DNA of 64,000 bases from Nitrosovibrio tenuis (GTDB lineage: Bacteria > Pseudomonadota > Gammaproteobacteria > Burkholderiales > Nitrosomonadaceae). Positions 15,894-31,441 of the stretch are shown here, one piece after another (the first letter of the stretch is position 1; each line of letters opens with the position of its first letter). The notes beneath the pieces are model-generated. The model was not told the DNA's origin. It saw only the letters and a program-made list of their open reading frames with translations, and searched no databases. The stretch spans positions 310,001 to 374,000 of the forward strand of contig NZ_FOBH01000003.1 of assembly GCF_900109785.1 (NCBI RefSeq). The letters are read 5' to 3'. The translations under genes were made by a program, and so were the position numbers.

Positions 15894-16327
15894 GAATTCT
15901 CCTGAATTCGGGTTGCTCACCGGCAACCCAACGGTACGTATATATTACATATTCTGGTGGCCCTGCCTATTGAACTCTGGTACTACTTGGAGACCTCGCC
16001 TGCTGGAACTGATTAAACCTGAAACAATCCGGCAAACTACTGTTTAGACCGTCGCAATGATTTCGATTTAGGTCGGATCAACCTGTAACCTATTAAAGTT
16101 GTGCAATAATATCCCCTTGCCAAGTTGCCTGTGCAGCGGATCTGTATTTAGGTGCCGCGTAATGCCAATTCGTGATGCGCCTCACTTCAAATTCCACCGG
16201 GAAGTATTGAAATAACGCCTGATCGATCGACCCAGGTAGCGGAATAGTTAAAAAAGCCCGGCCTAGCGTAGTCACCGGAAAGACCCTGCTGTCCCTCTGT
16301 AATGTGCTGCCTCCCAGACGAGCGATC
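15894..16327. other. Intergenic region upstream of the sensor kinase
   Basis: 434 bases between divergent genes; must hold the promoters for the small minus-strand gene and for the kinase operon. I see no operator, RNA gene or repeat in it. Confidence 0.45.
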
Positions 16328-19300
16328 ATGACGATCCAGAAATTGAGTTTTATCTTCTATCTCGTGACAGCGATATTAATTTCGCTGCTCACCCTTTTCA
16401 TCGGGCTTCGTTTCTTCGAACAGCGGGAGTTAGAGCATTTCCGGGAGACACGCTATGAATCATTTCTTGCAGCCGACGAGCTGCGCCAGTCATCCGATGA
16501 TCTGACGCGCATGGCCCGCGCATATGTCGACACCGGCAATCCCAAGTATGAACGAATGTATTGGGACATACTTGCGATCCGCAATGGTGAGAAGGCACGG
16601 CCGCTGCACTATGAACGGAGTTATTGGGATCTCGTTATCGGCGATCCCGACTTCCAGCCCTCCCCGGGAGGCCGAAAAATTTCTTTACGAACGTGGATGG
16701 AGGAGCTTGGATTTACCGAGGCAGAGTTTGCAAAGCTTGCGGAAGCTCATAGGGAGGATAACCATTTGGCGGTATTGGAAAGCACGGCACTGAATGCGAT
16801 GAAGGGGTTCTTTCAAGGCCCTGATGGCCAATTCAACGTGAGGGGAGACCCTGACCCCGAGCTGGCCCGCCGCCTCTTGAACGACGAGAACTTTTACAAG
16901 AAAAAGGTCAGGACCATGCGGCCGCTAAACGAGTTTTATGAATTATTCGACGCGCGCACGCTCAATTCGGTCGCTACCGCCCAGCAGCGCACGGACCTCT
17001 ATGTCTACGCCGTCCTCCTCACGTTCGTCTTCCTCGTGGCCTGGCTCGTTCTTTCGTCCCGCATCGTGTGGCGAAAAGTACAAAATCTGGTGCAACTCGA
17101 AGAAGAGACGAGGAACATCGGAAAAGCGGACTATGTCTCTCAATTCAAGATTGACTCCAATGACGAGATAGGCAATCTTTCCCGTGCCTTTATTGCCGCT
17201 CAGGCCGAGCGCGACCGCTATTTCGACCAGTCTCTCAACTTGCTCGCCATCGCCAACTTTGATGGCCATTTCAAACGCCTGAACCCGGCCTGGTCAAAGG
17301 AATTTGGGTTCTCGCCGGAAGAGTTGCTGTCTCGACCCTTCATTGACTTCGTCGCGCCCGGCTCCCGCACACAGGCTGCAGCAGAACTGGATAAACTCAT
17401 GGCATATTGTGAGGATTCGTTCGAAATCCAGATGGCCTCCAAGGATGGGTCGTTGCGCTGGGTCTTATGGAATATAACCGCCCTACCGGAGGTTCAGGAA
17501 TTCTATATTTCGGGCCAAGACATTACACAAAGGAAGAATGCTGAAATCGACCTGCAAAATGCGCAAAAAGCAGCGGAAGCTGCCAGCCGTGCTAAAAGCG
17601 AGTTTCTGGCAAACATGAGTCACGAGATTCGTACGCCCATGAATGGCGTGCTCGGCACGGTTGACCTGCTTCTGAATACCTCGTTAACCAGGTCGCAGCG
17701 CGAGCTGGCGAGGCTGGCACGCGCAAGCGGCGAGACACTGCTTGCCATAATTAATGACATTCTCGATTTCTCAAAAATCGAGGCGGGTAAATTGACAATT
17801 TCTCCTACGCCTTTTGATCTTCTTGAAACCGTTGAAGCGGTGGCGAGCATGATCGCCATGCAGCCCACCCGGAAGCATGATGTCAATATCATCGTACGTT
17901 ATCCCCCGGCTGTGCCGCGCTACGTGATTGGTGACATGGGGCGCATCCGTCAGGTATTGACGAATTTGACCAGCAATGCCATCAAATTCACGGATAAAGG
18001 TCACGTCCTCATCGATATCGAAACCGATTCGATCGGTGAAGACGGAGCCACGCTGCGTTTCAGTGTCGAGGACAGCGGCATCGGCATCGCGGCAGATAAA
18101 TTGGAGGGCCTCTTCGACAAGTTTACGCAGGCGGATACCTCCACAACACGGCGCCATGGCGGAACAGGCCTGGGACTGGCCATCAGCAAGCAGCTGGTAA
18201 AATTGATGGGCGGGACCATCACGGCCAAGAGCCGTATTGGTATCGGCTCAACGTTCTGGTTTACCCTCCGGCTGCCCCTGCAAAGCAATCGACCGGCAGA
18301 GATCACGCCTCGTGCGGAATTAGCAGGTGTTCGTTTGCTGATTGTGGACGATAACGCAGTCAACCGTCTCGTTCTGCAGGAGCAAGTCCGCGTCTGGAAA
18401 ATGCGTATCGGAAGCTGCTTATCGGGTGTAGAAGCCCTTCGGACGCTACGCGAAGCTCATGCCGCCGGTAATCCCTACCATATTGCCATCCTGGATTATC
18501 AGATGCCCGAGATGGATGGAGAAACGTTGGGCCAAGCCATAAAACGTGACCCGCTTTTGCGTGATATCGAACTGATCATGCTCAGCTCCATGGGACAGGA
18601 AAGCGAAGTTCGGGAGCGTCTCAGGAAGATCGGTTTTGCGGCCTATCTGGTCAAGCCGGCGCGCCAGTCAGAACTATTGTCAACACTCACAAATATCTGG
18701 GGTGCACACTGCGAACGACGCACAATAGACCTCATCGGTGATGCCCAGCCCCTTCCACAAACTCATGAGGTACAAACTGACAGCCCGGAAAGCACATTTA
18801 TTGGCACACGCGTGCTGCTGGCGGAGGATAACATTACCAATCAGATCATCGCGGCGATGATGCTGCGCAGTCTGGGCTGCGAGGTCGACATCGCAGCCGA
18901 TGGCCGGCAAGCAATACAGCGGATAGATGAATTCCCCTACGATATTGTCTTCATGGATGGCGAGATGCCGGAAATGGATGGCTTCGAAGCCACTGCTGCG
19001 ATTCGCCGCCGGTCCGACAGTAAATCTCAGCTCCCCGTCATCGCTGTAACGGCTCAGGTAATGCAAGGCGACAAGGAACGCTGTCTGCTCGCAGGTATGA
19101 ACGATTACATCAGCAAACCGGTGAAACACGAGGATTTCGCCGCTGCCTTAAAACGGTGGTCGCTGAAGAAAGATGAACATGAAGCTGGCCGGGTAGAGAA
19201 AACGCAGAACGAGAAAACAGCTGGTGCCGATTCCTCGCATTTCTTATCTTCCCAAAGCGCTTCGTCTATAAACGCCTCGTCGGTATTGAGCAGCGAGATC

Positions 19301-19657
19301 GTGACGCGCTTGCGCGCATTGGCGCAGGCAACGGAACCAGCCTTGTTCAACCAGATGTTCGCGTCGTTCCTGAGCGACAGTGCTGAACGTATCAGTATCC
19401 TGAGAAGCGCGGCAAACACGGCTGATGCCGAGCGCCTGCAAGCCACCGCTCACGCCATGAAAGGCGCCAGTGCCAATGTGGGGGCTACGCATATGGCAGA
19501 GATCGCCCGGCAACTGGAAGTTTTAGGCAGGACCTCCTCAGTGACCGGAGCCATCGCATTAGTAGAAGCAATGGAAAGCGAGTTTGAACGCGCGAAGAAC
19601 GAGATTAATGCGATTATGGGGCAACTTGACCCATCGCAGGGGGAGACTCAGCCATGA
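16328..19657 (+). CDS. Hybrid sensor histidine kinase with two receivers and an HPt domain
   Basis: 1109 aa from ATG at 16328 (a GTG at 16304 would add 8 residues; neither start has a strong ribosome binding site). Order: membrane segment about 10-28, a periplasmic sensor region of about 190 residues, a second membrane segment (YAVLLTFVFLVAWLVLSS), HAMP, PAS/PAC (about 295-420), HisKA with SHEIRTP and phospho-His 432, ATPase domain (NLTSNAIKFT, DSGIGIA, GGTGLGLAIS), receiver 1 with Asp 723 (LDYQMPEMDG), receiver 2 with Asp 877 (MDGEMPEMDG), and an HPt domain with His 1042 (HAMKGAS). A BarA/TorS-style phosphorelay in one protein. The stop overlaps the next gene (ATGA), so the GGDEF regulator is the obvious output. 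Confidence 0.93.
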   Translation: MTIQKLSFIFYLVTAILISLLTLFIGLRFFEQRELEHFRETRYESFLAADELRQSSDDLTRMARAYVDTGNPKYERMYWDILAIRNGEKARPLHYERSYWDLVIGDPDFQPSPGGRKISLRTWMEELGFTEAEFAKLAEAHREDNHLAVLESTALNAMKGFFQGPDGQFNVRGDPDPELARRLLNDENFYKKKVRTMRPLNEFYELFDARTLNSVATAQQRTDLYVYAVLLTFVFLVAWLVLSSRIVWRKVQNLVQLEEETRNIGKADYVSQFKIDSNDEIGNLSRAFIAAQAERDRYFDQSLNLLAIANFDGHFKRLNPAWSKEFGFSPEELLSRPFIDFVAPGSRTQAAAELDKLMAYCEDSFEIQMASKDGSLRWVLWNITALPEVQEFYISGQDITQRKNAEIDLQNAQKAAEAASRAKSEFLANMSHEIRTPMNGVLGTVDLLLNTSLTRSQRELARLARASGETLLAIINDILDFSKIEAGKLTISPTPFDLLETVEAVASMIAMQPTRKHDVNIIVRYPPAVPRYVIGDMGRIRQVLTNLTSNAIKFTDKGHVLIDIETDSIGEDGATLRFSVEDSGIGIAADKLEGLFDKFTQADTSTTRRHGGTGLGLAISKQLVKLMGGTITAKSRIGIGSTFWFTLRLPLQSNRPAEITPRAELAGVRLLIVDDNAVNRLVLQEQVRVWKMRIGSCLSGVEALRTLREAHAAGNPYHIAILDYQMPEMDGETLGQAIKRDPLLRDIELIMLSSMGQESEVRERLRKIGFAAYLVKPARQSELLSTLTNIWGAHCERRTIDLIGDAQPLPQTHEVQTDSPESTFIGTRVLLAEDNITNQIIAAMMLRSLGCEVDIAADGRQAIQRIDEFPYDIVFMDGEMPEMDGFEATAAIRRRSDSKSQLPVIAVTAQVMQGDKERCLLAGMNDYISKPVKHEDFAAALKRWSLKKDEHEAGRVEKTQNEKTAGADSSHFLSSQSASSINASSVLSSEIVTRLRALAQATEPALFNQMFASFLSDSAERISILRSAANTADAERLQATAHAMKGASANVGATHMAEIARQLEVLGRTSSVTGAIALVEAMESEFERAKNEINAIMGQLDPSQGETQP

Positions 19658-20532
19658 AAATATTAATTGCCGAAGACGATACCACCACGCGCCTGATATT
19701 TGGTGCCACCCTAAGGAAAATGGGACACACTGTGACGGCCGTAGAAGATGGGCAAAAAGCATGGGAGGCCTGGCAGCAGGAAGAATACTCACTGCTCATC
19801 TCCGACTGGATAATGCCTGATATCGATGGCCTGGAATTATGCAAGAGGATCCGAGCCCAGCCCAGCCTGCAATATACCTACATCATCCTTCTTACCTCAA
19901 TGGACGGCAAAGGTAGTTATCTCGAAGGCATGGACGCGGGCGCCGATGATTTTATTACCAAGCCTTTCGATGAGGAACAACTGGCAGCGCGACTCCGAGT
20001 GGCCGAACGAATAATTGCGTTGCACCGGAAACTGCGTATCCAGGCCACGCGTGATCATCTTACCGGTGTGTGGAACCGGGCTGCTATCATGGATTACCTG
20101 CTTGGAGAGGTGGAACGAGCACGACGGCAAAGTACCCATATTGGGGTGATCATTGCCGACCTCGACCACTTCAAGCGAATCAACGACACCTTTGGGCACC
20201 CTGCCGGCGATGCTGTCTTGCAAGAAGCCGCCCGGCGCATGCAGTTGGCCCTTCGTCCCTATGACCGGCTGGGGCGCTACGGTGGCGAAGAGTTTCTCTT
20301 CATAGCCTCAGGCTGTGATTTGAGCCAAACGATGGCGCTGGCTGAACGGATCCGGAGCTTCATGAGCGCGGACCCTATCACAATTCATTCTGGCGAACTT
20401 CCTGTGACTGTGAGCTTGGGGGCGGCGGTCGGTAGTGATCAGGTCGGCGAAGACGCGGCTGCGCTGATCGCCGCCGCTGATGAGGCACTCTACCGGGCAA
20501 AAAAAGCGGGCCGTAATCGGGTTGAATCCTAG
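19654..20532 (+). CDS. Response regulator with GGDEF (diguanylate cyclase) output
   Basis: 292 aa. Receiver domain 1-125 with acidic pocket (AEDD near the N-terminus) and phospho-acceptor Asp 51 in SDWIMPDIDG; Lys in FITKPFDE. GGDEF domain about 135-292 with the active-site variant GGEEF at 210-214, a functional form, and the inhibitory I-site RPYD exactly five residues before it. It should make cyclic di-GMP when phosphorylated and be feedback-inhibited by product. It overlaps the hybrid kinase gene by 4 nt, so kinase, phosphorelay and cyclase form one signalling operon. Similar in layout to PleD/WspR-type regulators. Confidence 0.93.
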   Translation: MKILIAEDDTTTRLIFGATLRKMGHTVTAVEDGQKAWEAWQQEEYSLLISDWIMPDIDGLELCKRIRAQPSLQYTYIILLTSMDGKGSYLEGMDAGADDFITKPFDEEQLAARLRVAERIIALHRKLRIQATRDHLTGVWNRAAIMDYLLGEVERARRQSTHIGVIIADLDHFKRINDTFGHPAGDAVLQEAARRMQLALRPYDRLGRYGGEEFLFIASGCDLSQTMALAERIRSFMSADPITIHSGELPVTVSLGAAVGSDQVGEDAAALIAAADEALYRAKKAGRNRVES

Positions 20533-20894: not shown

Positions 20895-20967
20895 AACCTC
20901 GAACTGACCCATAGAGCAAGCCAGAAAGGAAGCCAATAAACTCTTGGGCCACATCGCCGCTGGGCGA
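20895..20967 (+). pseudogene. Fragment of a P4-type integrase gene
   Basis: The DNA from GAACTGAC at 20901 to about 20967 closely matches the integrase gene at about 21399-21466 (the ELTVEQARKEAHKLLGHIATG region), with a one-base insertion near 20909 that breaks the frame. Only about 70 bp remain. It is left of the attachment core, so it belongs to an older, mostly lost element at the same tRNA rather than to the present island. Confidence 0.6.
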
Positions 20968-20987
20968 AAAGCATAAGCCATTGTTTA

Positions 20988-21045
20988 TTGGTGCCGACAG
21001 AAGGAGTCGAACCCTCGACCTTCTGATTACAAATTCTAATTCTAC
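20988..21045 (-). repeat. Partial tRNA-Thr 3' half (left attachment site)
   Basis: Read on the minus strand this is the 3' part of a tRNA: anticodon-stem region, a T-arm GAGGG-TTCGACT-CCTTC that pairs correctly, acceptor strand TGTCGGC, then ACCA. The 18-bp block 21017-21034 (GACCTTCTGATTACAAAT) is identical to 31394-31411 in the intact tRNA-Thr. The 5' half is missing. It marks the left end of the island. Confidence 0.8.
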
Positions 21046-21152: not shown

Positions 21153-21197
21153 TGTCTACACTGTGTCTACATGAAAGGGAGTTAAAACGTGTCTACA
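21153..21197 (+). promoter_or_regulatory. TGTCTACA repeats, probable integrase arm sites (left)
   Basis: TGTCTACA occurs at 21153-21160, 21164-21171 and 21190-21197. The first two are 11 bp apart, one helical turn, and the third covers the integrase GTG start. The 20-mer at 21153-21172 recurs with one mismatch at 31301-31320 just inside the other island end, as expected for integrase arm-type sites. Confidence 0.55.
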
Positions 21198-22436
21198 CCA
21201 GCCTCAGCACTCCCCGTTAGGATCACAAAATCTGTCGTGGATAGGCTGAATGCTCCCATAGCAGGGCAGACCTTTACCCGCGACTCCGAACTCAAAGGTT
21301 TTGCGGTCCGCGTTACGACCTCTGGCGCCAAGTCGTTCATTTTGGAAAAACGTATCGACGGCAAGGTGAAACGGCTAACGCTTGGCCGCTATCCCGAACT
21401 GACGGTAGAGCAAGCGAGAAAGGAAGCGCATAAGCTCTTGGGCCATATTGCTACGGGGCGCAATCCTACCGCCGAGAAAAAGCAAAAAGAGCTGCAAGCC
21501 ACAACGCTGCAAAAAGCATTCGATGATTTCCTGCTTGCCAGAAAGAACCTCAAGCCGCGCACACTTTACGATTATCGGCGATTAATGAAAGTTGCTTTCC
21601 CTGATTGGCAAAATAAGGCTCTGGTTGATATCAGTAAGGAAATGGTTGCCAAGCGTCACACCAAGATTGGCGCGGAACATGGCGAAGCCTATGCCAACCT
21701 AGCCATGCGTTTTTTGCGCGCATTGTTCAATTTCTCCATTGCACAGTATGAAGACGGCAGCGGCAATGCCATTTTGCGAGAAAACCCCGTCGTGCGTCTT
21801 ACCCAGACTCGCGCATGGTATCGGGTAGCACGTCGGCAAACTATTATCAAATCTCATCAGCTCAAGCCGTGGTATGAAGGAGTAATGACGCTTAAGAATG
21901 ACAAAGTGTCTCAACAGTCTGCGCTCGTTGCCGATTATCTGCTCTTCCTCCTATTTACCGGGCTACGCCGCCAGGAAGCCGCAACCTTGAAATGGTCCGA
22001 TATCGATTTACGTGGCCGCTCGTTTACAATCAGGGATACCAAGAATCGGGAACCGCTCACATTGCCGCTCACGGATTTTGTTTACAGCTTATTGGAAAAA
22101 AGAAAGGCTACCGCCGATTCTGAGTATGTTTTTGCAGGAGGCGGAAAGGCCGGGCATCTGATTGAGCCGCGTCATCAGGTTCAACAAGTCAGGAATACGT
22201 CGGGCGTTTCCTTTACGTTGCACGATCTGCGCCGCAGCTATATCACGATTGCAGAAAGCATCGATATCTCGGCTTACGCCCTAAAGCGTCTGGTGAACCA
22301 CAAAATGAGCAATGATGTGACGGCGGGCTATATCGTAAATGACGTGGAACGTCTAAGGGAGCCTATGCAAAAAATCAGCGATTATTTGTTGAAATGCATG
22401 GGAGTCAATCCATCTGATGCAAAGAATATCATCTGA
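21189..22436 (+). CDS. int: Tyrosine recombinase / P4-type integrase
   Basis: 415 aa. N-terminal DUF4102-type arm-binding domain (about 1-95: RDSELKGFAVRVTTSGAKSF, LTLGRYPELTVEQARKEA), core-binding domain (about 100-200) and catalytic domain with Arg in LLFTGLRRQEA, the H-x-x-R box HDLRRSYITIAES, the HKM histidine and the tyrosine in TAGYIVNDVERLR. Complete and apparently functional. The start is GTG at 21189 with GGGAG about 10 nt upstream. It adjoins the left attachment core and would catalyse integration at and excision from tRNA-Thr. A TGTCTACA site covers its start codon, suggesting self-repression. Confidence 0.95.
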   Translation: MSTPASALPVRITKSVVDRLNAPIAGQTFTRDSELKGFAVRVTTSGAKSFILEKRIDGKVKRLTLGRYPELTVEQARKEAHKLLGHIATGRNPTAEKKQKELQATTLQKAFDDFLLARKNLKPRTLYDYRRLMKVAFPDWQNKALVDISKEMVAKRHTKIGAEHGEAYANLAMRFLRALFNFSIAQYEDGSGNAILRENPVVRLTQTRAWYRVARRQTIIKSHQLKPWYEGVMTLKNDKVSQQSALVADYLLFLLFTGLRRQEAATLKWSDIDLRGRSFTIRDTKNREPLTLPLTDFVYSLLEKRKATADSEYVFAGGGKAGHLIEPRHQVQQVRNTSGVSFTLHDLRRSYITIAESIDISAYALKRLVNHKMSNDVTAGYIVNDVERLREPMQKISDYLLKCMGVNPSDAKNII

Positions 22437-22451
22437 TGATATTATTAATCC

Positions 22452-22826
22452 ATGGAGCCTGATACGGGACTCGACGCCCTGCTTGATCTTAATGGCTATA
22501 TCGTCGATCAGGATTTGGGATGCTGGATCAAGGTCGAGGCATGGCGGGTCGTGGCAACCCCGGAAATTCCGCACGGTATCCGCTATGCGCTTACGCTCCA
22601 TGAACCCTATGGAAAACGAATCATGGGATACGACAACAGCCATGCCATAAAGCCGCCGAAGAAATTCAAGTATGCGGGGCAGCGGCTAGCGTATGACCAT
22701 AAGCATCGCCACATTTCGGATAAGGGAGTCCCTTACGAATTCAAGGATACTTACCAGCTGCTTGCCGATTTCTTCGAAGAAGTGGATCGTATACTGAAGG
22801 AAATGAAAATATGGAAAGAATTGTGA
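22452..22826 (+). CDS. TumE-like toxin (DUF6516 family)
   Basis: 124 aa, starting 15 bp after the integrase stop. Features of the DUF6516/TumE family: an alternating beta-rich N-terminal half (IVDQDLGCWIKVEAWRV), RYALTLHEPYGKRIMGYDNSH, then YDHKHRH and a C-terminal helix EFKDTYQLLADFFEEVDRIL. Members are proposed toxins of TumE-TumA pairs, possibly acting on RNA. The gene overlaps the next by 16 nt, the antitoxin-like HTH protein, matching the known pair order. In an island, such a pair probably stabilises maintenance. Family assignment is from memory of the motif pattern. Confidence 0.75.
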   Translation: MEPDTGLDALLDLNGYIVDQDLGCWIKVEAWRVVATPEIPHGIRYALTLHEPYGKRIMGYDNSHAIKPPKKFKYAGQRLAYDHKHRHISDKGVPYEFKDTYQLLADFFEEVDRILKEMKIWKEL

Positions 22827-24045: not shown

Positions 24046-24249
24046 GTGCAAGGGAATTTACTTTCAACTAGAGAAGCTGCTGTTTACTTAAGTGTCAGTG
24101 AAGCATTTCTCGAACGCGACCGCTGGGCCGGAGCAAAGGTGCCTTTCATCAAGATAGGCTCGCGCGCGGTGCGCTACCGCTTGCAAGACTTGGAACGCTA
24201 TATCGAGTCCTGCATTCGCAAATCCACCAGCGATACGGGCCGCAAATGA
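24046..24249 (+). CDS. Excisionase/AlpA-like HTH protein
   Basis: 67 aa from GTG at 24046, chosen for GGAG at 24033-24036; a GTG at 24031 in the same frame would lie within that hairpin arm. The sequence [20 protein letters not shown], then [20 protein letters not shown], is a MerR-like winged HTH of the excisionase/AlpA family, which helps integrase excise elements and regulates island genes. Its stop overlaps the replication gene start (ATGA). Role as excisionase or as rep activator is inference from position. Confidence 0.8.
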
Positions 24250-26186
24250 GCGCGGCGATATGGCCCATTCCCCACCCTGAAGGCGCATACGTTCGGGAAG
24301 ACGGCATTGTCTTTTATCGTGAAGAGGAACCCTTCACTTCCGATATTCTCAGCCGCCATCCCGACTGTCTGGCCGAGCCCATGGCACAGGAATATGCGCG
24401 GTTGTATTTGGCTAAAGGGGAAGAGAAAGCAGAGGCATATCTTAAGGCGATTTCCGCTCAGCTTGTCAGCACGCCTTTGAGCCTTGCAGCGACGGATGAG
24501 GAAATAGATGCGTTTGCCCGAAAGCTAGCGGATCAATTTTTCCGCCTGCAACGCTGGGTCAGCAATTCTGCTATTGCAGCCCTTTTCCTTTGCCATTTGG
24601 CAGAAAGCAAATACGGCGTTAGTCCGCTGGGTAAGGGGGATAAGGGCAAGGCAAAACTTCAATCAGCAAAACCGCTATCGCTACCAATAACGGAACCGGC
24701 AACAAAGCTTCTCACGTCTGTATCAGTATCGGTACCGGTATCGCTACCGGTAACAGGAGGAAAAAGCGCTGGGCCGGGACCGGTATCGGTAACGGATACC
24801 GTTACCGGTATAGGAAGCAAGCTGACTTTCCCAATCTCTGTAACGGTAACCGATACAGACAAACAGGCTCCTGTAACGGTAACAGGAGAATCTAATCCTT
24901 CCTTTCCTGTAACAGTAACAGGGAAATCCAATCTTCCTGTAACGGTAACAGGAGAATCCGATCCTTCGCCTCCTGTATCCGTTACCGATACCGGAATTAC
25001 CCATACGGGAATTCTAGCCCGCCTTGCGGATGAGCACTGGTGGCGTCGGGCATTGCGCAAGGTTCAGGTGCGCAAATTCGAACATGGTGCTATACGGTTG
25101 GGGCTGGTTCACAGCCGCAAGGGCAAGTATGTCAGTGATGAAACGTTGCGAAGGCGGCAGAAACAAATCCGCCGTAACCGGGCCATTCTCGAACACTGCA
25201 TAGCTATCAATGAGGCCGGGCAGGAATATACCCTACAGCAATTGGCCGAGCTTTCGGTATCCAATCCAGAGATTCGCCGTGCGGAATTGATGACCCGCAT
25301 TGCCGGGTTCGATGCAGTGGCTCAATCTCTGGGGCATGTCGGCGTCTTCTATACCATCACTTGCCCCTCCCGCATGCATGCCCGATTGTCTGTATCAGGA
25401 GAAGAAAACCCGAAATACGACAGAACCACACCACGGGAAGCGCAAGCCTATCTGAGCAAGATATGGAGTCGGATACGGGCCAAGCTCGCCCGTACGGACT
25501 TACACATCTATGGCATCCGTGTCGCCGAGCCTCAACACGATGGCACACCGCATTGGCACTTGCTGTTCTTCATGCCAAAAGAACACGTCAAACAAGTCGG
25601 AAGCGTGATACGCGACTACGCCATGCGCGAGGATGGCGACGAACCCGGCGCGGCAAAGCACCGTTATAAAGAGGAACGCATAGACCGGTCAAAAGGCACA
25701 GCGGCTAGTTATATCGCCAAATACATTTCAAAGAATATCGATGGCTTTGGCCTGGATTGCGATATTGATGGCGGAGAGCCCAAGAGTGCGGCTGAACGTG
25801 TAAGAGTATGGGCCAGCACTTGGGGTATACATCAGTTCCAGCAGATTGGCGGGCCGCCTGTAACGGTATGGCGCGAGCTGCGCCGCATGGGCGAGATGGG
25901 AGTAACCGGAGAGCTGAAAGAGCTCAGAGACGCGGCCGATAAGGGCGAATGGGACCGTTTTGTGATGCTGATGGGCGGACCGGAAGCGAAGCGCAAGGAT
26001 TTTCCCATATCGCTCGCTAAGCAGTGGAATGACAAGCCCAACCGTTACAGGGAACCCAAAGGGGAGGAAATCATTGGGATAACCTGGGCAAGTGCAATAT
26101 TCCCTACCCGTATTCATCGATGGACCATTCAGCATAAACGCGATCCGAATAAAATGAGGAGGCCTCAAACCGAAGCTCGGCTATAA
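24246..26186 (+). CDS. Phage P2 gpA-type HUH replication endonuclease
   Basis: 646 aa. The C-terminal half carries the HUH nuclease motifs of P2 gpA-like proteins: metal-binding HWHLLFF (about residue 433) and a two-tyrosine helix [13 protein letters not shown] (about 488). Such enzymes nick one strand at the origin, stay covalently attached and start rolling-circle replication. Between about 155 and 255 lies an unusual Ser/Thr/Val/Pro-rich linker encoded by palindromic DNA repeats of the type CCTGTAACGGTAACAGG. Translationally coupled to the HTH gene. It implies that the island, once excised, can replicate. No structural phage genes accompany it. Confidence 0.88.
24717..25005 (+). repeat. 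Palindromic repeat array inside the rep gene
   Basis: Repeats built from GTAACGG/CCGTTAC. A near-identical 24-mer starting TCCTGTAACGGTAACAGG occurs at 24869, 24905 and 24935, with related copies at 24741, 24838 and 24972. A perfect hairpin CGGTAACGG-ATA-CCGTTACCG lies at 24787-24807. P2-type elements keep their origin inside the A gene, so this may be the origin or Rep-binding iterons. Confidence 0.7.
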
Positions 26187-26493
26187 TCACCTTACATGAG
26201 ATTAGTCCTGCCCCTTGGAGTACTGTCAATAACTGTACGGCAAGAGATTGGACTAAGGCACCTAAGGTAAAAAATAGCCATTGCCGACGACTGTTTTAGC
26301 GGATTCCTCAGATTAAGTGGATTCCTCAGATTAAGATACCCAAGCTACGCAATACCCCTATTGTTTGGCAGGTGTACCTAAGTCCAATATGTGACTGGTA
26401 TTGGAAGCTGTAAGATGTTGCGCTAACGGGCGGTGCATGCGGTCTCGTTGCTACGGGTCAATGAGCTCTCAAAACGTAAATTGCAGATTTTTT
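26187..26493. other. Intergenic region with an inverted-repeat element
   Basis: 307 bases between rep and the next gene. It holds inverted repeats at 26247-26263 and 26370-26388 enclosing about 140 bp, and an 18-bp unit repeated twice at 26301-26318 and 26319-26336. No coding sequence. Confidence 0.5.
26247..26388. mobile_element. Small inverted-repeat element (possible MITE or IS remnant)
   Basis: ATTGGACTAAGGCACCT (26247-26263) is an imperfect inverted repeat of AGGTGTACCTAAGTCCAAT (26370-26388). The right end recurs with two mismatches at 14952-14970. The 142-bp interior has no gene but contains a tandem 18-bp duplication (GGATTCCTCAGATTAAG). Consistent with a small non-autonomous element or an IS remnant; no target duplication was established. 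Confidence 0.4.
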
Positions 26494-27321
26494 ATGGCTG
26501 ATATTAACCAAGTAATGTCTCTGCGATACGACGGTAAGGATGCCGAAAAGCATGAGCTGGACTTGTTTTCACTTGGCGTTTCCCTGCAGGGCTTTGCGCG
26601 CATTTCTTCCCATGCAGGCACTTTTGCTATTACGCACCGTTATTCCAAATACCTTCGTTCCCAAGTTGTGCGGGTAGCCGCGCAAGAAGCCCGAGCAAAT
26701 TGTTACTCGATTGATGTCGTTTGGAACTTTGTTCTACAACATCAAATTCTTTCCGGCTCATTTGGCATGCTAGTCGCTACAATTATCCCGTTGGTATTAG
26801 CGACCGCATCCCGAAAAAAAGATGAAATTCTTCACCTCAAGGATTCGCTCGATAAAGCAATTGAGCGCCTTGCCTCACGAGATCAGCCAACAATGTCGCG
26901 CTTACTTGACACTGTGGATCGACTTGTCATTGACCAACGACGCAACGCCCGACAGGCATTCGAGCCCATTGGTTTATCTTGCAGAACTCTCACCGTTAGC
27001 GCTGGAGGAAAGTCCACCACCTTCGATCAAGCCGATAAGGCAGCGTCAGAATTGTCCCCAAAGGATGAAATTACGGAAATGCTTGTGTTTTCGGTTTTAA
27101 TTACCGAGCTCGACCTCGAACGTTTTACCGGCAAAGCCTATGTGGACCAATTCGCGCCCCCTGATAGGCGCATACCAATAACAATAATGGATCCGACTGT
27201 TCAAACTCAAAATAACGCTTATGCGTCCAGTTTAGCTGCTGCGTCACCACTAAGGGTATTGGCAAAAGGATTACTTAAGGAGGGGAAATTGGTACGCCTC
27301 TTTGTTTCAGCCGCTATGTGA
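26494..27321 (+). CDS. Uncharacterised protein, DUF7946-like N-terminus
   Basis: 275 aa from the ATG at 26494; the frame is open upstream (TTG 26401, ATG 26461), but similarity starts here. The N-terminal pattern RYDGKDAEKHELDLFSLG, then VSLQGFARI, is shared by a family of uncharacterised proteins that I believe is catalogued as DUF7946. A hydrophobic segment (FGMLVATIIPLVLATA, about 90-105) could be a membrane helix or buried core. The C-terminal half looks beta-rich. Members often occur in accessory regions. It precedes kwaA by 64 bp on the same strand, so it may be defence-associated, but that is inference. Confidence 0.6.
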   Translation: MADINQVMSLRYDGKDAEKHELDLFSLGVSLQGFARISSHAGTFAITHRYSKYLRSQVVRVAAQEARANCYSIDVVWNFVLQHQILSGSFGMLVATIIPLVLATASRKKDEILHLKDSLDKAIERLASRDQPTMSRLLDTVDRLVIDQRRNARQAFEPIGLSCRTLTVSAGGKSTTFDQADKAASELSPKDEITEMLVFSVLITELDLERFTGKAYVDQFAPPDRRIPITIMDPTVQTQNNAYASSLAAASPLRVLAKGLLKEGKLVRLFVSAAM

Positions 27322-27385
27322 TAAACCCAACAATTGGAACGTCACACGCAAACCTATATATATACAACAAGAAGCGGGAATCAAT

Positions 27386-27976
27386 ATGCATAAGGGCGGT
27401 TTGGGGGGGAAAATCGAGCTATATATAGTTTCATTATGGTTCTTATTTTTCTTAATTATTGTCATAACCATAGATATTCCGATTTATCTGGAGCCAGACT
27501 GGGAGTTTCTTAATCTTGAAGATGTAATTAGAAAAAATATTATCCCGATTGTCGCTTTCGCCTTTGTCACCGCTGGGCTTTTCTTTTACTTACGATTTGA
27601 ATATAGGATTTCGGGTAGTCAAAGAATCCCTGCAAGAATTACAAAAATTCAGGACGTAAACTACGAACATCTTACTTTTTTAACTACTTATATAATCCCT
27701 CTGATTTGCTTTAACTTAAGCAGCACAAGATATGTGCTAGCTTTGGGCTTGCTGTTGGTTGTTATTGGGGTTATTTACGTCAAAACAGACAAGTTTTACG
27801 CAAATCCAACGCTTGCGATGCTCGGATATCAAATCTATAAAGTCGATATGCATACAAGAACCAATAATGTCGAGAACCTGATTCTGATATCTAAGGATAA
27901 ATTATCGATGAATGACTTAGTTAACTACAAAGAGCTTGACGAAAAAGTTTCTTTTGCCGGGAAAGTAAGAGAATGA
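27386..27976 (+). CDS. kwaA: Kiwa anti-phage membrane protein KwaA
   Basis: 196 aa from ATG at 27386; an upstream TTG at 27302 would add 28 implausible residues. Four hydrophobic segments: YIVSLWFLFFLIIVITI, IIPIVAFAFVTAGLFFYL, TFLTTYIIPLICFNLSS and YVLALGLLLVVIGVIYV, with the family signature YEHLTFLTTYIIPLICF. A soluble C-terminal ~50 residues follows. KwaA is the inner-membrane subunit of Kiwa, which senses infection at the membrane and works with KwaB. Overlaps kwaB by 4 nt. Much more AT-rich than the core genome. Identification is from memory of the family pattern. Confidence 0.88.
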   Translation: MHKGGLGGKIELYIVSLWFLFFLIIVITIDIPIYLEPDWEFLNLEDVIRKNIIPIVAFAFVTAGLFFYLRFEYRISGSQRIPARITKIQDVNYEHLTFLTTYIIPLICFNLSSTRYVLALGLLLVVIGVIYVKTDKFYANPTLAMLGYQIYKVDMHTRTNNVENLILISKDKLSMNDLVNYKELDEKVSFAGKVRE

Positions 27977-28929
27977 ATAAATTAAAAGAAGATATTACCG
28001 AAATTCTTAATTTACGTGGGGTATCAGCAGAGGTCTATTTTGTGTTAAAGGTTTCAGAGGATTATCAAATAAAAGAGGCTGATCTAGATAAAATTTCACA
28101 AATTCAAATTTTAGAGCAGTGCAAAGATTCGATAGGAAAATCCATCCTAAATGAAGAATTAGCGCTTATAAATATTTCTGAAGCGGATTCTAGAACTGAT
28201 GTGATTTATAAATACGATTTAGCTGAAATACCCGAAAAGCTTAGTTGTTTGCAGCAGGTTAAAGACTCAAATAACTTTCCCGAATTTAATTTTGATAGGG
28301 ATAGTCTTTCTGACTTAGAAGGAATTCTTATAGTAATTGGTAACCATGAAAAACAACTTGTAATTTATAAGCATCAATATCCAATTTATTTGCTGAATAA
28401 AAAAGCATTTAATTTGATAAGAATGAAGAATCAGAATAGATTTGAAAAGTTAGATGAAGACGTGTTAAAGATTAATCCAACATTTGAACTCTTATATATT
28501 AATAACCATTATTACGTATTTAATTTGAAATTCCTAGAAAGAGTTTGTGGGTTTCACGAGGCTATAATGAACGGTGCTCGGGCTGGAATAGATATTATCA
28601 ATGCGTCTAATTTAATAGACGACATCACTGTCTTAACTAATAGACTTAGTAATATCAATTTCGCAAAAAAACTCTTAAAAGCCGCCAAAAATTCTCCTGT
28701 TCTAGGAATTATTCCCCTCGAAGATATTGTTGGTTTTGCTAGCAGCCATCCTTTGCTAAAAGGAAAGTTTAAGGTCAATGCTGAGGGAACGAGGTTAGAT
28801 CTAAGAACGAAGGCTTCTCAGGATTTATTCATGAAGTTATTAAATGATGATCTCTTGCATTCGGAGCTTACGAAAAGATTTTATGACAGCGTGGCTAAAG
28901 ATAAAGTTGAAGAATTAGCGCAAGCCTAG
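27973..28929 (+). CDS. kwaB: Kiwa anti-phage protein KwaB (DUF4868)
   Basis: 318 aa, starting in an ATGA overlap with kwaA. The pattern ELLYINNHYYVFNLKFLERV, then CGFHEAI, and the C-terminal KFKVNAEGTRLDLRTKAS followed by a helical end match the DUF4868 effector of Kiwa, described as a DNA-binding effector that cooperates with membrane KwaA against phage. Length matches the family. Strongly AT-rich. Together with kwaA this is a complete two-gene Kiwa system; I see no truncation. Confidence 0.9.
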   Translation: MNKLKEDITEILNLRGVSAEVYFVLKVSEDYQIKEADLDKISQIQILEQCKDSIGKSILNEELALINISEADSRTDVIYKYDLAEIPEKLSCLQQVKDSNNFPEFNFDRDSLSDLEGILIVIGNHEKQLVIYKHQYPIYLLNKKAFNLIRMKNQNRFEKLDEDVLKINPTFELLYINNHYYVFNLKFLERVCGFHEAIMNGARAGIDIINASNLIDDITVLTNRLSNINFAKKLLKAAKNSPVLGIIPLEDIVGFASSHPLLKGKFKVNAEGTRLDLRTKASQDLFMKLLNDDLLHSELTKRFYDSVAKDKVEELAQA

Positions 28930-29057: not shown

Positions 29058-30437
29058 ATGCAATTAATTAGACCAAGAATTACTGACTATCACGGAATTA
29101 GCAAATGTCAGGCGGATCTGGATTTTGCGATCCAGTTTTTCGATGAAGATATTCCTTTATATGTTGACCCCTTCTTGTTGTGGAAGTCGCCTTCTCAACA
29201 AGATCAAGCGCTGCATACCGCTATTACCAACTCCTTTAACTATCTTAATTACTTACTCAAAAAGAAGCGAGAAACTGACGCTGTAAATATCTTGATTGGC
29301 ATTTCTGAATGCTCAGAAGTAGGGCTTGGCGTCGCGAAAACTAGAAAGGGGAAAAAAATTGGAGAGAAGCAAGCGCAACAGGTATTGAGTTTGTTTCGTG
29401 ATATTCCCGAGTATAGCCAATTCGGCTTCACGCATTTCGAAGCGGTTCAATTATATATTTCGGGCATTAGTAAAGACCGTGTTAGTGATATTGCATGCAA
29501 CTATATCAAATCCTTCTTGATTGATTACACAATCGAGCAGTGTGAAATACATGGAATCCCCATCGAAAGCGTTATTCTTGACGGAATCTATAATTACAAA
29601 GAACACCGGCTAGACATAAATCAAAAAGCTTATCTTCCTGTAAATCCTCAAACCAAAAGTCCAATACTATTTACACCAAAACGATGGCTGCGTTATACGC
29701 CATGGATAAATTTTGATGATTATTTTCGTTCGTATTGCCCAAAAGACGAGATATTTAATCCAGAGGAGCTAGAAGAAAGTAGGGTTAAGGTTCTTAACTA
29801 CAATAGGGAAAATTATGGCGTAGTTGAGGAGTACATTAAGTATAAAGATAAAACGTCTAGAGATTGCAAAAATGATCCTCTGTTCAGCCAAATACCGGTT
29901 CTCTCCGCTAGCAGGAAGCTAAGTGAAATCCTGAAATTAAATACAGGAAAAGAAGACGGTGCAGACTGGAGATATGAGAATCTATCCTCGGAGCTTTTAG
30001 CATCGCTACTCTATCCCCATCTAGATTTTGCGCAAACACAAAGTCGCACAGATTCGGGCCGACATATTAGGGACCTCATTTTTTACAACAACAGAGACCT
30101 AGACTTTTTAAATGATATTTTTACCGATTATGGAAACCGCCAGCTGATAATCGAAATGAAAAACGTTAGATCAATAGAGAGAGAACATATTAACCAGCTA
30201 AATCGATATCTTCACGATGCGATTGGTAGATTTGGTGTATTTCTGACCAGGAATCCACTGTCTAAGCCAATGTTCGAGAACACTGTTGATCTCTGGTCAT
30301 CGCAGCGCAAATGCATTATTGCGCTAACTGATGACGATCTCAAGTTAATGGTGGAAGTTTATGAGAGCAAACAAAGGGCTCCAATTGAAGTTCTAAAGAA
30401 AAAATATGTTCAATTTAAGAGAGCTTGCCCATCATGA
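29058..30437 (+). CDS. PD-(D/E)XK nuclease-like protein of an unassigned three-gene unit
   Basis: 459 aa from ATG at 29058. The N-terminal ~300 residues (LIRPRITDYHGISKCQADLD, VDPFLLWKSPSQQDQ) match no family I know. The C-terminal part shows the spacing of a PD-(D/E)XK nuclease core: Asp 339 in RDLIFYNN, then IIEMKN with Glu 366 and Lys 368, then Gln 380 in the following helix (INQLNRYL). So it may cut DNA or RNA. It starts 128 bp after kwaB and is followed closely by two small paralogous genes. AT-rich like Kiwa. Likely defence function by context; the nuclease call is a motif inference. Confidence 0.65.
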   Translation: MQLIRPRITDYHGISKCQADLDFAIQFFDEDIPLYVDPFLLWKSPSQQDQALHTAITNSFNYLNYLLKKKRETDAVNILIGISECSEVGLGVAKTRKGKKIGEKQAQQVLSLFRDIPEYSQFGFTHFEAVQLYISGISKDRVSDIACNYIKSFLIDYTIEQCEIHGIPIESVILDGIYNYKEHRLDINQKAYLPVNPQTKSPILFTPKRWLRYTPWINFDDYFRSYCPKDEIFNPEELEESRVKVLNYNRENYGVVEEYIKYKDKTSRDCKNDPLFSQIPVLSASRKLSEILKLNTGKEDGADWRYENLSSELLASLLYPHLDFAQTQSRTDSGRHIRDLIFYNNRDLDFLNDIFTDYGNRQLIIEMKNVRSIEREHINQLNRYLHDAIGRFGVFLTRNPLSKPMFENTVDLWSSQRKCIIALTDDDLKLMVEVYESKQRAPIEVLKKKYVQFKRACPS

Positions 30438-30447
30438 AAGGGAAGAC

Positions 30448-30852
30448 ATGAACAAAAGTGATGTAGATAGTTTTGAGAGACTTTCTGGACAGTTAGCGGG
30501 CGTGTATGAAGAAATTTCATTGCTCTCCAAAAAAGCGCCAAACGATGCAGTAAATAAGTTTAAGCTCAAATTTATCAATCAGCTCATTACCGACAGCAAT
30601 GATTTTCTCTCAAATAAATATCGTCCGTTTGACGACTTTTCGAGCTTTGAGGAAGACGACATTCCACAAAATAGTGATGTGATATTTATTGTTTCACAAT
30701 ATTTAAAGTGTTTCGAAAAATTGAAGGCCGATAACGTCAGTTGGAAGCACCACTCATGGTGTTGGAGCGTCAAGGGTAATGAAGGCGATGGTGTAGATGA
30801 GAGTGGTCTTGTTTATATAAAAACAACTCAACCTAAAAAACTGATTGGCTAG
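30448..30852 (+). CDS. Small acidic protein, paralogue 1 of the three-gene unit
   Basis: 134 aa from ATG at 30448, with AAAGGGAAG just upstream and 10 bp after the nuclease-like gene. Mostly helical and acidic. It shares with the next gene the pattern (P-D)AVNK-K-x4-N-L, then FEEDDIPQNSDVIFIVSQY, followed by an aromatic stretch around SWKHHSWCW. No known domain recognised. Close spacing on both sides indicates cotranslation with its neighbours. It might be a sensor, an inhibitor or a structural partner of the nuclease-like protein; none of these is shown. Confidence 0.75.
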   Translation: MNKSDVDSFERLSGQLAGVYEEISLLSKKAPNDAVNKFKLKFINQLITDSNDFLSNKYRPFDDFSSFEEDDIPQNSDVIFIVSQYLKCFEKLKADNVSWKHHSWCWSVKGNEGDGVDESGLVYIKTTQPKKLIG

Positions 30853-30854
30853 AT

Positions 30855-31205
30855 ATGAAAAATAATCCGCTTGTAACTACAACGCAGAAAGTAAAAACTT
30901 ACGACACAACAATGCCGTTATTAGATTCGATGTACCAAGAATTTAAAGAATTATCCAAAAAGAAGCCCGACGCGGCAGTAAACAAGAACAAAATAACTAT
31001 CGTAAATCGCTTACTTCACAAGATGAGATTGATACTAGAAGATGAAGAGTCAATAGAATTTCTCGATCTTATTGATGAAGATGATATTCCACAGGCAAGC
31101 GATGTCACCTTGATTCTATCTCAATACGTTGCCGCCATGAATGGATTTAGGAGTAAATACTATGAATGGAATGGTCATAAAAATCAGTGGCGCACAGAAA
31201 ATTAA
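30855..31205 (+). CDS. Small acidic protein, paralogue 2 of the three-gene unit
   Basis: 116 aa; ATG at 30855, two bases after the previous stop, so translation is probably coupled. Clearly related to the preceding product: KKPDAAVNKNKITIVNRLL and DLIDEDDIPQASDVTLILSQY align with it, then a Trp-containing end YYEWNGHKNQW. The two probably arose by duplication and may form a heterodimer. It is the last gene of the island before the terminator at 31327-31365. Function unknown. Confidence 0.75.
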   Translation: MKNNPLVTTTQKVKTYDTTMPLLDSMYQEFKELSKKKPDAAVNKNKITIVNRLLHKMRLILEDEESIEFLDLIDEDDIPQASDVTLILSQYVAAMNGFRSKYYEWNGHKNQWRTEN

Positions 31206-31300: not shown

Positions 31301-31320
31301 TGTCTACACTATGTCTACAT
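31301..31320 (+). promoter_or_regulatory. TGTCTACA repeat pair, probable integrase arm site (right)
   Basis: TGTCTACA at 31301-31308 and 31312-31319, 11 bp apart. The 20-mer differs by one base from 21153-21172 near the left end. Both lie inside the island close to an attachment core, fitting integrase arm-type sites. Confidence 0.55.
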
Positions 31321-31326
31321 AAATAA

Positions 31327-31365
31327 ATGACTTATGCTTTTATACGCATAAGTCATTGTTTTTTT
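31327..31365 (+). terminator. Terminator at the right end of the island
   Basis: ATGACTTATGC (31327-31337) and GCATAAGTCAT (31346-31356) form an 11-bp stem, followed by TGTTTTTTT. It stops island transcription running antisense into tRNA-Thr and, more weakly, could end the tRNA transcript on the other strand. A decayed similar sequence (GCATAAGCCATTGTTT) precedes the left partial tRNA at 20971. Confidence 0.75.
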
Positions 31366-31441
31366 GGGTGCCGACACCAAGATTCGAACTCGGGACCTTC
31401 TGATTACAAATCAGCTGCTCTACCAACTGAGCTATGCCGGC
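31366..31441 (-). tRNA. tRNA-Thr (anticodon TGT)
   Basis: Read on the minus strand: acceptor GCCGGCA pairing with TGTCGGC, D-arm with AGCTCAGTTGGTAGAGC, anticodon loop TTTGTAA giving TGT, variable loop AGGTC, T-arm CCGAG-TTCGAAT-CTTGG. The discriminator base is A, but the genome continues CCC, so CCA is not encoded here. Integration site of the island: its 3' half contains the 18-bp core. Complete and probably functional. Confidence 0.95.

Follow-up and report, generated by a model that had tools for sequence, protein, structure and literature searches.

The three-gene unit analysed here consists of a larger gene, A, and two small paralogous genes, B1 and B2 (together the trio), and lies in a stretch of 64,000 nucleotides from Nitrosovibrio tenuis (the window). 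Its closest described counterpart is a candidate entry of PADLOC-DB 2.0.0, PDC-M36 (models PDLC04597-04600), in which PDC presumably stands for phage defence candidate and whose models we take to come from a 2024 preprint of Payne and colleagues. That preprint is listed among the references of PMC13092281. Our search covered the main texts of an open literature collection; none of them mentions the name PDC-M36, and among the matches listed for 'PDC-M' we found unrelated uses only.

Two groups of described nucleases share individual parts with the trio. The type IIS enzymes FokI and BspD6I possess a cleavage domain that resembles residues ~273-459 of protein A in predicted fold and in its PD-(D/E)XK residues. 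Both Pfam and PADLOC hold models of Shedu (SduA), which, like A, joins an N-terminal module to a C-terminal PD-(D/E)XK domain, with a nuclease fold match of Z 7.6. According to a passage of PMC12904381, E. coli Shedu binds DNA ends through its N-terminal clamp. The trio differs from FokI and BspD6I in sequence (identity 11-13%), in its N-terminal domain and in its B partners, and no methyltransferase was recognised in the surrounding element. From Shedu it differs in having two extra genes and no SduA family match; neither the Shedu models of Pfam and PADLOC nor the Kwa models of the neighbouring Kiwa system matched A, B1 or B2 at E values up to 1. The original prediction had called the unit unassigned and like no system known to its author, and this part needs correcting: A and both B proteins match PDC-M36 from end to end, with A covered over its full length by PDC-M36A, the M36B genes adjacent as in the catalogued arrangement, and no tested difference between the two. 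The unit is therefore already catalogued, its mechanism being unexplained as far as our main-text literature search reaches.

Gene layout and mobile setting

All three genes lie on the plus strand, with 10 bp between A and B1 and 2 bp between B1 and B2 (Table 1). The original prediction had read this layout and these gaps correctly, as the ORF coordinates demonstrate, and it was equally accurate on the terminator, a hairpin followed by a T tract, and on the AT-richness of the unit, with 38-39% GC across the trio against 52-55% at ~16-21 kb and 47-54% rightward of the trio. Its description of the small proteins as acidic was too strong, the net charges being a mild -4 and -2. Alternative starts are possible at an upstream TTG (29049) for A and at an ATG (30406) for B1, which would give a protein of 148 aa overlapping A.

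Table 1. Coordinates of the trio, of the domains of protein A and of features of the host element within the window
Feature	Position	Strand	Details
Left attachment-like repeat, partial tRNA-Thr copy	20984..21034	.	82% identity to 31361-31411, 51 nt; identity ends at 21034
Element integrase	21189..22436	+	Arm-DNA-bind_3 and Phage_integrase
Phage P2-type replication protein A homologue	24246..26186	+	Phage_GPA E=1.1e-89
Kiwa neighbour (kwaA 27302-27976, kwaB 27973-28929), outside the trio	27302..28929	+	NCBIfam KwaA and KwaB above cut-off
Gene A (PDC-M36A)	29058..30437	+	459 aa from ATG; PADLOC PDLC04597 E=1.1e-250, residues 1-459
A, N-terminal unnamed domain, residues ~1-235	29058..29762	+	No Pfam match; eight invariant positions
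A, C-terminal predicted PD-(D/E)XK domain, residues 273-459	29874..30434	+	Fold match; E307/D339/E366/K368/Q380; PDDEXK_3 E=0.0012
Gene B1 (PDC-M36B, first paralogue)	30448..30852	+	134 aa; PDLC04599 E=8.5e-58
Gene B2 (PDC-M36B, second paralogue)	30855..31205	+	116 aa; PDLC04600 E=2.4e-52
Terminator-like hairpin	31326..31357	+	12-pair stem, then T run
Right attachment-like repeat	31361..31411	.	Overlaps tRNA-Thr 31367-31441, minus strand

The trio lies at the right-hand end of a ~10.4-kb element integrated at tRNA-Thr, in which an integrase, a TumE-like toxin gene, a P2-type replication protein, a DUF7946 protein, Kiwa and the trio follow one another in this order. In addition to the attachment-like repeats, 23-nt repeats are present at 21153-21175 and 31301-31323, and the replication protein shares 42-44% identity with phage replication proteins over 58-60% of its length. 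The prediction of Kiwa next door proved right, KwaA and KwaB both passing the NCBIfam cut-offs. The claim that the unit sits at the end of a defence island holds in so far as Kiwa lies beside it; the setting is a tRNA-Thr-integrated mobile element and not just a defence island.

We noted several further features of the element and its surroundings. The TumE-like toxin gene (22452-22826) lies right behind the integrase, and the DUF7946/DUF7947 protein (PHROG 5147; 26401-27321), between the replication gene and Kiwa, is possibly another cargo gene. Short repeats with units of ~18-51 nt cluster at 24667-24996 within the coding sequence of the replication protein. Just left of the element, 20912-20969 repeats a stretch of the integrase (21406-21463) at 83% identity, which suggests that it is left over from a previous insertion at this tRNA. 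Stretches of seven congeners were fetched at the tRNA-Thr site, of which six could be read across and one shows 1.4 kb only; none of the seven has a match of at least 60 nt to the element except for the tRNA repeat, and the gap between the PPDK gene and tRNA-Thr measures 2.5-8.6 kb in the six congeners versus 18.4 kb here. A hybrid sensor kinase and GGDEF response regulator at 16304-20532, likewise without a DNA match of at least 60 nt in the fetched congener stretches, possibly represent a second insertion.

Other copies of the trio are also found in mobile contexts, namely on plasmids and near a phage portal gene (L043), and at L068 the trio adjoins an ORF that by eye resembles a phage integrase. 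On a cyanobacterial plasmid (L029, 6163-7846) and a Methylobacterium plasmid (L030, 6928-7959), the genes immediately upstream of the trio are of umuDC type; since neighbour clustering yielded no third such locus, we dropped UmuC/UmuD as a functional link.

The two domains of protein A and its B partners

The C-terminal part of A has the predicted core fold of the PD-(D/E)XK superfamily. In an AlphaFold model built from 29 sequences (mean pLDDT 81.8), the nearest solved folds to residues ~273-459 are BspD6I subunits and FokI, with Z scores of 11.1-11.9 and rmsd values of 3.4-4.0 over 155-173 aligned residues. Foldseek results were weaker: RPB5 RNA polymerase subunits came first (E 0.012), followed by BspD6I (E 0.026), and no match fell below 0.001. 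Although RPB5 headed this PDB list, its Z score of 8.4 is lower than those of the restriction enzymes, and it was therefore not pursued as a lead; a viral fold library gave weak matches to both restriction enzymes and RPB5. At the sequence level, the match to PDDEXK_3 stayed short of the curated cut-off, profiles of whole A, its N-domain, its C-domain and B returned nothing credible among the sequences of solved structures, and Pfam, NCBIfam and PHROGs assign A, B1 and B2 to no named family. PHROGs 27295 (E 1.4e-25), 30194 and 31260, whose function is not annotated, match A, and some virus families thus carry A domains even though searches of named phages with A or two of its relatives gave no match.

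The residues of the predicted active site support this assignment. E307, D339, E366, K368 and Q380 are invariant across all 27 M36 rows of our alignment (A5); when every row is counted, E307, K368 and Q380 are present in 29/29 and D339 and E366 in 28/29, the odd row, from a distantly related protein whose nuclease is of another type, having a gap there. The predicted catalytic D...E-x-K residues are hence conserved in A, and D339, E366-x-K368 and Q380 stand exactly where the original prediction had placed them, with the invariant E307 as a fifth residue missing from that account. Together with the predicted fold (Z 11-12), these residues make a strong case for the nuclease-like nature that had been proposed for A.

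The N-terminal domain was indeed unrecognisable, with no Pfam family and no credible PDB sequence match for residues ~1-235. The fold search used whole A, and matches to the nuclease domain took up its entire list; model confidence is lowest at residues 28-34 and 88-95, which contain D31 and G91. Conservation was counted among 44 family members, of which 24 belong to the M36 branch and 20 are relatives (rows L007, L020, L025, L026, L027 and L040 of A5 were dropped, L026 and L027 re-entered under the names L050 and L051, and five M36 copies, L005, L012, L029, L030 and L068, lie outside the count). D31, E84, G91, G98, D140, S143, D144 and P207 are identical in 44/44 members, and D37, P38, T158 and P194 in 43/44. 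The N-domains of nine of the 20 relatives were compared with that of the window's A, to which they are 21-27% identical. Strict conservation of acidic residues at such low identity looks like the signature of an active or binding site.

The relatives have the N-domain in common with A of the M36 branch and differ from it in the absence of B genes. In a tree of the N-domain, the proteins with B form one clade (support 100/100) and those without B fall outside it; among relatives with the same nuclease type, B genes are absent in 6/6 loci read. This nuclease type is found at the C-terminus of six of the 20 relatives, the remaining 14 having another or an unrecognised C-terminus (12 proteins of 477-695 aa and two of about 320 aa). 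Ten of 11 longer relatives checked carry G-P-x-D-[YF]-K ... E-[FM]-[KN], one with N for the last K, a pattern fitting another PD-(D/E)XK type. From these comparisons the B pair looks to have been gained on one branch of A, with loss elsewhere as the alternative. The only recurring partners of the solo relatives, besides A, are small clusters (2-4 loci), which by eye look transposase-like or regulator/peptidase-like. The M36-type nuclease domain also occurs fused to an Mrr-type restriction domain (L034, 4554-5603) and, by eye, next to a P-loop-containing frame (L066), and one B-less relative of A lies between ORFs whose starts appear HsdM- and HsdS-like by eye (L084, 2812-9482).

B1 and B2 each match both PADLOC M36B models, so that the DAVNK (DAVNK/AAVNK) and DDIPQ-SDV-SQY patterns, which the original prediction had correctly seen as shared, reflect paralogy. 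The predicted structure of B1 (pLDDT 93) consists of three helices followed by beta strands; its closest fold, the mycobacterial proteasome activator Bpa (Z 8.0, rmsd 3.4, 95 aligned residues, Foldseek E 0.22), scores within what unrelated helical bundles reach by chance, and we draw no function from it. In a tree of 52 B proteins, of which 25 come first and 27 second by position, a B1 side separates from a B2 side with 100/100 support, the exception being the second gene of L019, which groups with the B1 proteins; a constraint uniting the 25 B1 rows in a single clade was not rejected (p-AU 0.417). Judged from their sequences, B1 and B2 are two old subfamilies, separate from each other. We set aside a single B as sole antitoxin because both subfamilies are retained, except at L019 with its two B1-type genes.

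Conservation of the trio as a unit

The trio is real, conserved and travels together in the mobile DNA of quite different bacteria. A close A is present at 34 loci (the window; 22 distinct contigs of L002-L024; L025, L029, L030, L039-L043, L068, L069 and L089), of which 31 are readable once L008 and L040, which meet a contig end, and the relic L069 are subtracted. The original prediction had raised the question of whether the three genes keep their order across genomes, and they do: two B genes lie directly behind A in 31/31 readable loci, so the arrangement is not due to chance. One B1-type and one B2-type frame are found in 29 of these, B type being assigned by gene order for L029, L030, L068 and L089, which are not in the tree; the exceptions are L006, in which B1 is broken in a poly-A run, and L019. 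The B1 frame of L043 is without about the first 40 profile positions, A is incomplete in contigs L007 and L025 and split into two frames in L020, and the L069 relic retains only residues 1-117 of a stop-broken A, with no B within the 3 kb read. Carrier records span nine phyla, a figure to be read with the caveat that bins may hold stray contigs. One contig stretch, for example, is filed under both a Thermodesulfobacteriota and a Saprospiraceae bin (L021 and L022), which is a binning error in at least one of them.

Co-occurrence follows the same pattern. Among 369 genomes of the class, a close A is present in two, the window's genome included, and strong B matches are present in the same two; any match to the A profile occurs in four, and in one genome without a close A part of a larger frame weakly resembles B (E 4e-4). 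Among 398 genomes of the phylum, a close A and B again occur in the same two, including the window's genome, and the A profile has matches in 19 genomes, covering the N-domain in 15 and solely the nuclease in four. Within the genus (23 genomes), full A is confined to the window's own genome, with distant matches in three others. Viral contigs scanned with B1 yielded one locus, again carrying A and B2, and those scanned with B2 none; a DNA-level search of E. coli genomes with the Proteus copy gave no match. Moreover, the pairwise identities of A, B1 and B2 correlate over 21 loci (r 0.90, 0.88 and 0.84; 0/2000 permutations), L019 and L025 having been left out and the remaining absentees having no row. 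The mean identities across loci are 62% for A, 51% for B1 and 45% for B2, indicating that the B partners change faster than A.

The original prediction further asked about proximity to other defence genes. Known defence genes were identified at four of the 34 loci, a raw count and not an enrichment: the window, L041 (type II restriction-modification), L013 (a type I-like restriction subunit) and the L069 relic (restriction genes alongside). The neighbours viewed at L008, L011, L039 and L042 gave no PADLOC match. Neighbours were viewed one by one at 11/34 loci, mostly one or two proteins each. The two PADLOC matches at L023, a UvrD-type helicase and a tRNA methyltransferase, appear to be housekeeping genes, and on the L030 plasmid an Abi-family gene lies ~6.6 kb upstream. 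Of two viral contigs, L039 has flanking proteins without any match, and those of L042 match weakly and over part of their length, one of the matches bearing the annotation putative restriction endonuclease. When flanking proteins of 27 loci were pooled, 150 of the 160 were scanned (10 short proteins, those above 900 aa and two plasmids were left out) and matched 312 families, which are not assignable to single loci.

Possible functions of the trio

We believe that the trio probably functions in defence, and we lean slightly towards PDC-M36 being a mobile anti-phage, or anti-mobile-element, nuclease system that is controlled or directed by a B1-B2 complex. A would be the effector, in which an N-terminal sensing or processing domain is joined to a FokI/BspD6I-like PD-(D/E)XK domain that may cut DNA once triggered, presumably by infection. 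B1 and B2 would descend from one ancestral helical protein and form a mixed complex with A, holding A in check or directing it; in this proposal, the mixed complex would account for the need for both B proteins and for the movement of all three genes as a unit. That B1 and B2 bind A and set when or where it acts is a reasoned guess, for which we see the chances as evenly balanced. The PADLOC candidacy, the predicted nuclease fold, the 31/31 B pairs, the co-occurrence, the correlated identities, the one-clade tree, the mobile context and the restriction genes beside some copies support the anti-phage reading. We count against it the identification of defence neighbours at 4/34 loci, with 11 of the 34 viewed one by one, the housekeeping-like matches at L023, the lone weak B-like match, the ranking of RPB5 ahead of BspD6I in Foldseek and the lack of matches in named phages and, at the DNA level, in E. 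coli.

The main rivals are a toxin-antitoxin module and direct restriction. The original prediction proposed a defence or toxin-immunity module, and its defence half agrees with a nuclease-like A, two paralogous partners, a conserved order and a mobile setting beside Kiwa; toxin-immunity lacks specific support because relatives of A with the same build exist without B. In a toxin-antitoxin or addiction module, A would be a toxic nuclease and B1 and B2 its antitoxins, the trio being kept since loss of the element kills, with phage defence secondary. Such a module would suit mobile elements, a nuclease, short intergenic gaps and the occurrence of two B genes behind each of the 31 readable close A, together with the lack of B at the one relic of A (L069). 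However, two distinct B subfamilies kept together exceed the need for one antitoxin, relatives with the same N-domain and nuclease build do without B (6/6 loci read), and the element already contains a TumE-like toxin gene, so that we regard this explanation as unlikely.

Direct restriction, in which the N-domain and B1/B2 would recognise a DNA sequence, end or modification and A would cut foreign DNA without an infection signal, appears rather improbable to us: the fold match to FokI and BspD6I and the restriction-modification genes adjoining some copies and relatives point towards it, but no DNA-binding domain was recognised and no methyltransferase was found among the element genes scanned, a scan with several small ORFs outside it. 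A non-defence function for the mobile element, such as control of its replication or transfer, would explain copies on an integrative element, on plasmids and on a viral contig with a portal gene, yet the copies have very diverse carriers, and gene clusters other than A and B recur in at most four of the loci compared, two of these being the same contig, which makes this reading very improbable. Finally, an accessory role in which the trio works with KwaA/KwaB is hardly credible, as it draws on adjacency in the window (kwaB ends 128 bp upstream of A) whereas the 10 other loci viewed one by one, a partial look, showed neither a match to a Kiwa gene nor an annotation of one, and Kwa is absent among the matches listed for the pooled flanking proteins (25 of 312 families, 150 proteins).

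Returning to a controlled nuclease system, we tentatively propose, with more doubt than confidence, that the N-domain is an unrecognised domain that acts as an enzyme or senses a ligand, with D31, D37, E84, D140 and D144 as its acidic site, that it founds a broad family of defence nucleases in ~4% of the phylum genomes sampled (15/398), and that PDC-M36 is the branch which gained the B1-B2 regulatory pair. A defence candidate that was listed without explanation gains a testable anatomy, comprising a predicted nuclease site, an invariant N-domain site and two partners that mark the branch, and what B1 and B2 contribute can be judged against the solo relatives. The N-domain, matched by the A profile in those 15 genomes, would merit a family of its own, and if our proposal is true, the gain of B1 and B2 would have made a controlled machine of three parts out of a nuclease encoded by one gene.
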